Positions 5,963-7,957 of a stretch of 49,487 nucleotides of DNA are shown here, one piece after another. The stretch lies in assembly GCA_026987075.1 (NCBI GenBank), contig JALSNI010000026.1, positions 1-49,487 on the forward strand. The letters run 5' to 3'. The position numbers were made by a program, and so were the translations under genes. This stretch comes from Persephonella sp. Lineage in GTDB: Bacteria; Aquificota; Aquificia; Aquificales; Hydrogenothermaceae. Every line of letters begins with the position of its first letter. The first letter of the stretch is position 1. The notes beneath the pieces are model-generated. The model did no database searches. It saw only the letters and a program-made list of their open reading frames with translations, and was not told the DNA's origin.

Positions 5963-6847
5963 ATGGAAGTTTTAGACTATCACAAGCTAAAAATATTCAA
6001 AACTGTTGCCGACACAAAAAGTTTTTCAAAAGCAGCAGAGCTCCTTTTTCTCTCTCAACCTACGGTAACCCTTCAGATAAAAAAGATAGAGAATTATTTA
6101 GGTATAACTCTTTTTAGAAGGGATAAAAAGGGTGTTTTTCTAACGGCAGAGGGGAAAATATTTTATGAGTATGCATCAAAGATATTAGATGATTATAATC
6201 TTATGGAAGAAGGTTTATCTAACCTTAAAGAAAATCTTCAGAAGAGTCTCAGAATAGGGGCAAGCACAACTATAGGAGATTTTCTCATTCCTGACATACT
6301 TCCCCAATTTTTGAGAGGGAAGGAAAACATAAAAGTAAATCTTTTTGTTGGGAACTCTAAAGAGATAGAAGAAGGAGTGTTATCAAAGATATTTTACGTG
6401 GGTCTGATAGAGGATGAGGTTCATTCAAACAAGTATGAGCAGTTTGAGTTTTTTTCTGACGAAATAATCCTAATCGCATCAAAAATGTCAGAGATACCAG
6501 AGGAGATTGATGTAAAAGAGTTAAACAAGTATAGGTTTGTGTTTAGAGAACAAGGTTCTGGGACAAGGAATATAGTGGAAAAGAGATTAGAAAAAGAAAA
6601 TGTGAAGATAAAACCTGACATAGAAATCAGCAGTAGTAAGGCTATTGCAAGACTTGTTGCAAATTCTGACTACCTATCTTTTGTATCAAAATTGGTAGTA
6701 AAAAATATGTTAGGGATACATCTAAAACATGTGAAAATAAGAAACATCTCTTTTACAAGGAAGTTTTACTGCATTACCCAGAAAAACATAAGACTGCCTA
6801 AAATAGATAGAGAGTTTATACAGTATTTACTGGACATTGAGGGATAA
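5963..6847 (+). CDS. LysR-family transcriptional regulator
   Basis: 294 residues. The N-terminal winged helix-turn-helix (YHKLKIFKTVADTKSFSKAAELLFLSQP region, about residues 5-60) is the classic LysR DNA-binding domain. A linker helix and a periplasmic-binding-protein-like effector domain follow, including the FREQGSGTRN motif common in CysB/CbbR-type effector domains. The start has a GGCGGGAAG ribosome site, and a possible extended -10 (TGT-TATATA) lies at 5908-5916. LysR regulators usually control a divergent neighbour, but here the upstream gene tlyA is co-directional. The target is therefore unclear; the small RNA unit immediately downstream is one candidate. Confidence 0.9.
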   Translation: MEVLDYHKLKIFKTVADTKSFSKAAELLFLSQPTVTLQIKKIENYLGITLFRRDKKGVFLTAEGKIFYEYASKILDDYNLMEEGLSNLKENLQKSLRIGASTTIGDFLIPDILPQFLRGKENIKVNLFVGNSKEIEEGVLSKIFYVGLIEDEVHSNKYEQFEFFSDEIILIASKMSEIPEEIDVKELNKYRFVFREQGSGTRNIVEKRLEKENVKIKPDIEISSSKAIARLVANSDYLSFVSKLVVKNMLGIHLKHVKIRNISFTRKFYCITQKNIRLPKIDREFIQYLLDIEG

Positions 6848-6871: not shown

Positions 6872-6900
6872 TTGACTATCACGGAAATTTTATTAATAAT
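6872..6900 (+). promoter_or_regulatory. Sigma70-type promoter of the intergenic small RNA
   Basis: TTGACT at 6872-6877 and AATAAT at 6895-6900 are separated by 17 nt. Each is one mismatch from the vegetative consensus and the spacing is ideal. This is the best two-box promoter I noticed in the window. It lies just after the LysR stop codon and points to a start near 6907, with no ORF downstream before the terminator. Confidence 0.6.
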
Positions 6901-6906
6901 AAATAT

Positions 6907-6975
6907 TATTACTGGTGTCGTTCACCACCACTCTCCCCCTTTCCTGGTGGGTCGTAAAGACCCGCCGTTTTTTTT
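6907..6975 (+). ncRNA. Putative C-rich stand-alone small RNA (about 70 nt)
   Basis: A transcript from the promoter at 6872-6900 to the terminator at 6946-6975 would be about 69 nt. It has a 5' hairpin (6913-6917 with 6923-6927, TGGTG/CACCA, loop TCGTT), then an unstructured C/U-rich segment (6931-6944, core CTCTCCCCCTTT), then the terminator. The CCACCA at 6925-6930 could alternatively pair with TGGTGG at 6945-6950, giving two competing folds. It contains no convincing ORF. The C-run is complementary to Shine-Dalgarno-like GGGGGAG sequences, as in known C-rich trans-acting sRNAs. Its 3' end just reaches the stop codon of convergent kdsD. I do not recognise it as a known family. Confidence 0.55.
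6946..6975 (+). terminator. Intrinsic terminator of the small RNA
   Basis: Eight-pair stem GGTGGGTC (6946-6953) with GACCCGCC (6959-6966), including one U-G pair. The loop is GTAAA, followed by a G and eight T residues (6968-6975). It is strong and oriented on the plus strand. It could also stop read-through from lysR. Confidence 0.88.
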
Positions 6976-7957
6976 ATATGACGCCGCTTTTTAATATGTC
7001 GTGCATGTGAATAAGACCTATAGGTTTATTGTTTTCTACCACTGGTAAAACTGTGATGTTATACCTTTCCATAATCTCAAGAGCTTCAATTACTAACATT
7101 TCTTTTGAGACAGTTTTAGGACTTAAGGTCATTGCTTCAGCTGTTTTACCTGTGTCTATGCTTCCTCCCTTTTTTATGAACCTTCTTAAGTCTCCATCTG
7201 TTAATATTCCTTTTAGTAGTTCATTTTCATCTGTTACGACGGCACATCCAAATCCTTTTTCAGACATTATAACTACAGTTTCTTTGAGGGGGGTTTCAGG
7301 TTTTACTAAAGGTAATTTTTCTCCAGTATGCATTATTTCTGAAACTTTCATAAGCTTTTTCCCTAAAGAACCTCCTGGATGAAAGCGAGCAAAGTCTTCT
7401 GGTGTAAATCCCTTTAACTCTAAAAGGGCTATTGCTAAAGCATCTCCAAGGGCTAAAGTTGCAGTAGATGAAGATGTGGGAGCTAAGTTATGGGGACACG
7501 CTTCTCTTTCTACATTTAAAAAAAGATGTATGTGGCTTTCCTTTGATAATGTTGATTCAGGGTTGTTTGTTATTGATATTATTTTATGTCCCCATCTTTT
7601 TATAGTAGGTATAATAGCTAATAGTTCAGGTGTCTCTCCACTGTTTGATATTGCAAGTATCACATCTCCCTTTGATATCATTCCAAGGTCTCCGTGAATT
7701 GCCTCTGCTGGATGGAGGAAAAATGCTGGTGTTCCTGTTGATGCAAGGGTTGCAGCAATTTTTTGACCTACATGTCCAGACTTTCCCATACCTGTGACTA
7801 TTACTTTTCCCTTTGTGGTTGCAATGGTTTCTACTGCTTTTTTAAAATTTTCGTCAAGGGCATCTATAAGGTTTTCAATAGCTTTTTTCTCTTCCTCTAA
7901 AACCCTTTTTCCTATTTTTAAAGGGTCTTTACTCTTCAATCCTGTTTTTACCTCCAT
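6974..7957 (-). CDS. kdsD: Arabinose-5-phosphate isomerase KdsD (SIS + two CBS domains)
   Basis: Interconverts ribulose-5-phosphate and arabinose-5-phosphate, the first step to Kdo for lipopolysaccharide. 327 residues, the usual length. The SIS domain (about 40-180) has VTGMGKSGHVGQKIAATLASTG and the SNSGET motif. Two CBS repeats follow (VSEIMHTGEKLPLV and AMTLSPKTVSK segments). The first 28 nt overlap the end of ricT. The ATG at 7957 has little ribosome-site support; an in-frame TTG at 7939 follows a GGAGG at longer spacing. It is the last gene of the tmk-holB-ricT-kdsD unit and implies a Gram-negative outer membrane with Kdo. Confidence 0.93.
   Translation of the reverse strand: MEVKTGLKSKDPLKIGKRVLEEEKKAIENLIDALDENFKKAVETIATTKGKVIVTGMGKSGHVGQKIAATLASTGTPAFFLHPAEAIHGDLGMISKGDVILAISNSGETPELLAIIPTIKRWGHKIISITNNPESTLSKESHIHLFLNVEREACPHNLAPTSSSTATLALGDALAIALLELKGFTPEDFARFHPGGSLGKKLMKVSEIMHTGEKLPLVKPETPLKETVVIMSEKGFGCAVVTDENELLKGILTDGDLRRFIKKGGSIDTGKTAEAMTLSPKTVSKEMLVIEALEIMERYNITVLPVVENNKPIGLIHMHDILKSGVI

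Follow-up and report, generated by a model that had tools for sequence, protein, structure and literature searches.

Small RNAs (sRNAs) of the anti-Shine-Dalgarno class share a simple layout, in which an unpaired anti-Shine-Dalgarno segment is followed by a terminator with a U-run. The main known target of RepG, an sRNA of Helicobacter pylori, is the chemotaxis receptor mRNA tlpB, which is bound in its 5' UTR, the RepG terminator loop pairing there with a G-repeat that varies and lies upstream of the ribosome site (PMC8295292). In the phylum Aquificota, the Hfq protein of Aquifex aeolicus binds U-rich RNA (U6; PMC5379935), and the intergenic ncRNA candidates n1-n99 of this organism come from dRNA-seq (PMC4227106); in that report Persephonella marina enters the comparative genome analysis only, and the main text mentions neither a C-rich sRNA nor one linked to chemotaxis. 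Aquifex aeolicus belongs to the same phylum as Persephonella but to another family of bacteria. Although the phylum has Hfq, no Aquificota trans-acting sRNA with known targets is described in the open-licence literature searched.

The lysR-kdsD locus compared with described sRNAs

We describe a predicted sRNA gene of about 69 nt in a window of 49,487 nt (the whole stretch of Persephonella sp. DNA analysed), where it lies between lysR and the convergent kdsD gene. From sequence comparison it is probably a clade-specific, trans-acting, base-pairing sRNA (we put this at about 0.74) that would pair with the ribosome sites of a chemotaxis receptor gene, mcp, and a thioredoxin-like gene, trx, lowering their translation. 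The features of the locus are as follows.

5963..6847, + strand: lysR, the upstream neighbour, a LysR-family regulator gene (open reading frame; Pfam HTH_1 and LysR_substrate); context, outside the sRNA
6872..6877, + strand: -35 element TTGACT, invariant across six genomes
6890..6911, + strand: conserved A+T-rich block with the -10 element AATAAT (6895-6900) and the predicted start (alignment)
6907..6975, + strand: predicted sRNA of about 69 nt, its 5' end placed from the promoter
6913..6927, + strand: 5' hairpin TGGTG/CACCA (predicted fold, conservation absent)
6922..6942, + strand: invariant, mostly unpaired core of 21 nt, TCACCACCACTCTCCCCCTTT (alignment, predicted ensembles)
6923..6935, + strand: predicted pairing segment CACCACCACTCTC, complementary over 13 nt to the Shine-Dalgarno region of mcp
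6931-6944, + strand: C-rich segment CTCTCCCCCTTTCC (sequence)
6945..6967, + strand: intrinsic terminator stem-loop of 9 pairs including a T-G, its stem present in six genomes
6968..6975, + strand: terminator T-run, T8, overlapping the kdsD stop by 2 nt
6974..7957, - strand: convergent kdsD gene, with SIS and two CBS domains (open reading frame, Pfam); context

Like RepG, the predicted sRNA is intergenic, has a pairing region rich in C and U, and has a chemotaxis receptor mRNA as its target, here a predicted one. A comparison with RepG had been drawn when the sequence was read by itself, and it is apt for a reason left out there, namely the nature of the RepG target (PMC8295292), which makes RepG a parallel in function. 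The two differ in that here the predicted pairing joins the ribosome site itself to an unpaired linker that precedes the terminator, and in that the key motif is CACCACCAC, whereas that of RepG is a C/U run. Membership of a RepG family does not fit the short, variable terminator loops or the mcp site, GAGAGTGGTGGTG, which has no G-run. The locus has the modular layout of the anti-Shine-Dalgarno class. The rhizobial sRNAs AbcR1 and AbcR2 block ribosome sites with an unpaired anti-Shine-Dalgarno segment (PMC8844928), but the Persephonella sRNA has no Rfam match at threshold that would place it with sRNAs of this type, and Rfam searches at gathering and relaxed thresholds give no match above threshold. 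The best weak score is to Burkholderia ncS16 (RF02866), which carries a CACCA-UCUCC segment before its terminator, a likeness of generic layout only; membership was rejected, as its 23.3 bits fall far short of the gathering score of 48. Trans-acting sRNAs directed at ribosome sites are a kind of regulator already known; the sRNA family, having no Rfam match, is new.

Organization and conservation of the sRNA gene

The putative promoter (17 nt between TTGACT and AATAAT) matches the consensus at 10 of 12 positions, a match that is by itself within chance expectation (7 found versus 5.2 +/- 2.0 in 2-kb shuffles) but rises above chance because it is conserved in six genomes. The 6907-6975 fold has an energy of -22.5 kcal/mol (z = -4.1; as good in 0 of 200 shuffles), which is mostly due to the terminator. 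The element is present as a single copy in the genome (G000; 1.66 Mb, 78 contigs). Promoter, non-coding stretch of about 69 nt, and terminator with T8 all lie where the sequence-only reading had placed them, and its proposal that an sRNA gene stands alone here, with a promoter and a terminator to itself, is supported by this anatomy and by conservation. As in trans-encoded sRNAs generally, the element is intergenic, has its own promoter and intrinsic terminator and no conserved open reading frame, and contains a conserved unpaired segment complementary to mRNAs encoded elsewhere. The A+T-rich block over the -10 element (6890-6911) is a possible operator; a search with it returned the window site as the sole exact match, and no regulon, while at 3 mismatches it gave 4 sites versus 2 for a reversed control.

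Five other Persephonella genomes (G002, G004, G009, G010, and G011) carry the element in the lysR-kdsD gap. The -35 element and UCACCACCACUCUCCCCCUUU are invariant among the six; in the alignment CTTGACT and the whole of TCACCACCACTCTCCCCCTTT do not vary, the -10 region is nearly invariant, and the promoter spacer and the interval between lysR and the promoter are unconserved. The C-run is conserved in relatives, as part of the invariant core at 6922-6942, and this core is also found exactly in the public Persephonella MAG contig JALTAS010000021.1 in a scan of public genome contigs. The terminator sequences diverge strongly, yet 36 of 36 inner stem cells are paired in the six genomes, and only 4 of 720 arm re-pairings reach full pairing; the loops vary and span 4-5 nt (GTAAA, GCAC, TTTA, CTGC, and TCTGC).

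Not all of the secondary structure first proposed is retained. The C-rich middle is unpaired as predicted, at about 95% in all six predicted ensembles, and of the 6907-6975 fold the terminator stem is kept in relatives. The 5' hairpin is gone in G011 and weaker in G002, without compensatory change, and the suggested competition between CCACCA and TGGTGG fails, with TGGTGG present only in G000 (G009 has CGGTGG) and the C-rich middle open throughout.

Predicted target genes

Starts were ranked by duplex energy with the invariant sRNA segment over 386 called starts in a 449-kb sample (27% of the genome), and long-site patterns were searched for in whole genomes. The top start of the 386 in G000 (-26.2 kcal/mol) is that of mcp, which codes for a protein with MCPsignal and HAMP domains and, in all orthologues checked, a CxxCH motif in the predicted sensor region, possibly a c-heme motif. 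The mcp leader in G000 reads ...atatcGAGAGTGGTGGTGtggcATG, and the sRNA segment CACCACCACUCUC is a perfect 13-nt complement of its Shine-Dalgarno region (-17..-5). In a search of 14 genus genomes, the exact mcp-site pattern occurs in G000, besides the mcp start, only in the sRNA gene. Orthologues carry related sites: AAGAATGGTGGTGatATG in G009, with one internal mismatch, CAGAGTGGTGGTGagATG in G011, CAGGGTGGTGGTGaaATG in G004, GAGAGTGGTGGTAAgATG in G010, and TGGAGTGGTGGTGatATG in G008. Site energies lie between -18.5 and -26.2 kcal/mol, a level that 0 of 500 shuffles per genome equalled, and the site ranks 2-10 in G009, G004, G010, G011, and G008.

The mcp site is missing in G001, G005, G006, G013, and G003, where energies are -6.6 to -10.8 kcal/mol; G003 (G003:C37:4996-5703) retains an mcp orthologue, and both the site and the sRNA at the kdsD locus are missing, which fits co-occurrence. 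When the count is limited to genomes in which the kdsD locus reveals whether the sRNA is there, 5 of 5 carriers with the gene found have the site versus 0 of 4 non-carriers (p = 0.008, a value that assumes an independence that shared ancestry forbids). We also note that the mcp leaders contain a ACCGATAA-like box, clearest in G011, which resembles the flagellar sigma-28 -10 element and suggests that mcp is a motility-regulon gene.

The same search yields a second start, that of trx, encoding a thioredoxin-like protein of about 92 aa (Thioredoxin_3, with a CPxC motif). Its leader contains GGGAAGGTGGTGGTGAgtTTG in G000 and G009 and AAAGGGTGGTGGTGAACGTG in G004, and the pairing with the sRNA extends over up to 16 contiguous nt. 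Energies are -27 to -34 kcal/mol in five genomes (e.g. G004 -34.4, G011 -33.5, G000 -28.7, and G008 -27.7) and weaker, about -21, in G002 (-20.9); trx paralogues (a second copy in G004, and those in G024 and G034) lack the site and reach only about -5 kcal/mol. Within the genus, the only genomes in which trx is found are ones with the sRNA, and G008, and in G001, G005, and G006 there is none near kdsD and none genome-wide. G008 (genome 55% complete) has both the mcp and the trx sites, and the sRNA locus was not found there; the trans-acting model predicts that this species has the sRNA.

A ribosome-site role alone could explain the conservation of the mcp and trx sites, in which case the transcript would be real and the sRNA would act on other mRNAs or on a protein. 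GGTGGTG is indeed located where a ribosome site is expected, and one shared clade accounts for the co-occurrence, but we regard this explanation as unlikely, given that GGTGGTG is unusual here (1 of 386 starts, versus 103 with GGAGG), that complementarity of 12-16 nt reaches beyond the ribosome site at two unrelated genes, and that the trx paralogues do without it.

The probable pairing segment

The sequence-only reading had the C-run, CUCUCCCCC, bind many G-rich ribosome sites, making the sRNA a global repressor. Action at ribosome-binding sites agrees with the targets above, but the global part of this proposal does not hold up and is improbable. In its favour, the C-run is invariant and unpaired, and real starts bind better than shuffled ones (mean -9.4 versus -7.9 kcal/mol); however, scrambled versions of the segment bind the 386 starts equally well on average, or better, so the average duplex energy is uninformative and individual conserved sites alone are informative. 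Among the 386 starts in G000, GGAG occurs at 171 and GGAGG at 103, whereas GGGGG occurs at 6 and GGGGGAG at 0. No conserved carrier start is complementary to the whole 13-nt CTCTCCCCCTTTC; the matches that are conserved are antisense of another C-rich RNA gene.

The seed is likely to be CACCACCAC, as judged from the complementarities. Target prediction with the C-rich segment had been suggested, and ribosome sites are indeed where the best conserved pairing falls, although it runs through CACCACCACUCUC and not through the C-run. The C-run was itself tried as the seed and rejected: a seed-complement search (GRRRGGGGGRGRG) gives mostly the antisense of C-rich RNA genes, and not conserved carrier starts.

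Other C-rich elements

G000 carries at least two further C-rich, terminator-ended elements. One is an RNA-like element between gatC and topA (G000:C46:19263-19289), in which CCCCCTCCCTCCCCCTCCAT is exact in most genomes of the family Hydrogenothermaceae that have the element, across several genera; it is far more widely conserved than the lysR-kdsD sRNA. A terminator follows it, a ATGATNNNNATCATT palindrome with spacing like that of a CRP/FNR-family site precedes it, and it has no Rfam match. This element suits the anti-Shine-Dalgarno idea better, because CCUCC, which is truly complementary to GGAGG, occurs within it. Some genomes of the next family (f2) carry an element analogous to it, in which AAACTCCCTCCCTCCCCCTCCCTCCCC is followed by a G+C-rich hairpin and preceded by a TTGACA-like promoter; many other genomes of that family have one match each to a reversed control pattern. 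A related C-rich RNA may be present order-wide.

A third C-rich element, TTTTCTCCCCCCTCTCCCCCTTCC with a CCTCCC/GGGAGG terminator (G000:C32:2436-2448, minus strand), lies just upstream of a protein start and may represent either an sRNA or an attenuator in the leader. The fourth is found in two congeners (G007:C98 and G012:C102), where CCTCCCTCTCCCCCTCCCCCC... precedes a terminator with a T-run at its end.

Origin of the gene

Among genomes from the family's other genera, 27 were searched, and none has a match to the lysR-kdsD element at up to 3 mismatches. In G001, G005, and G006, as in several further genera, lysR and kdsD end in stop codons that touch or overlap, leaving a gap of zero, and this empty junction indicates that the sRNA gene was most likely gained within a single clade. 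The carriers probably form one clade, grouping together in the kdsD tree with modest support (72% of bootstrap trees), and for this reason the co-occurrence of sRNA and target sites may reflect one evolutionary event. The lysR-kdsD pair predates the sRNA and does not depend on it. Control by the adjacent LysR protein (top NCBIfam model LysR_Sec_metab, under cut-off), which had been suggested, is not supported, since the same gene pair is present in genomes and genera without the sRNA and nothing is conserved upstream of the -35 element.

That the element is a processed lysR 3' UTR or terminator region of no independent function is very unlikely: read-through is possible, with no terminator-like site between the lysR stop and the element, but the -35 element is invariant despite the unconserved stretch from lysR to the promoter, lysR needs no such terminator in congeners and other genera, and the conservation of the core exceeds a terminator's needs. 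A small protein gene is scarcely credible, as the 40-codon TTG reading frame over the element (6872-6994) begins within the -35 element, G011 and G002 have lost the GTG inside the transcript and no frame is conserved, and the terminator half varies in length and sequence.

Proposed mode of action and significance

As a trans-acting sRNA, the element would be transcribed from its own sigma-70-type promoter and end at the intrinsic terminator, and its conserved 5'-CGUUCACCACCACUCUCCCCC would pair in the cell with the Shine-Dalgarno and start regions of at least two mRNAs, mcp and trx. Covering their ribosome-binding sites, it would lower translation; Hfq perhaps acts at the U-rich 3' end. We infer a link to redox or energy taxis.

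A broader account, for which we see about even chances, is that of a young sRNA that arose in a new gap in one clade together with a regulon, comprising mcp, which acquired a 12-14-nt site, and trx, a gene that is itself clade-limited within the genus. No earlier Aquificota sRNA would have named targets backed by evolutionary evidence; the sRNA would parallel RepG independently, and its genome would hold at least three C-rich sRNA genes, this one included.

The case offers a predicted sRNA, two named predicted target genes, and the exact base pairs predicted between them, and the availability of congeners with and without the sRNA makes it a clean example from nature of the joint appearance of an sRNA and its target sites. 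Confirmation would mean that chemotaxis receptors came under the control of C-rich sRNAs separately in Helicobacter and in bacteria of hot vents.
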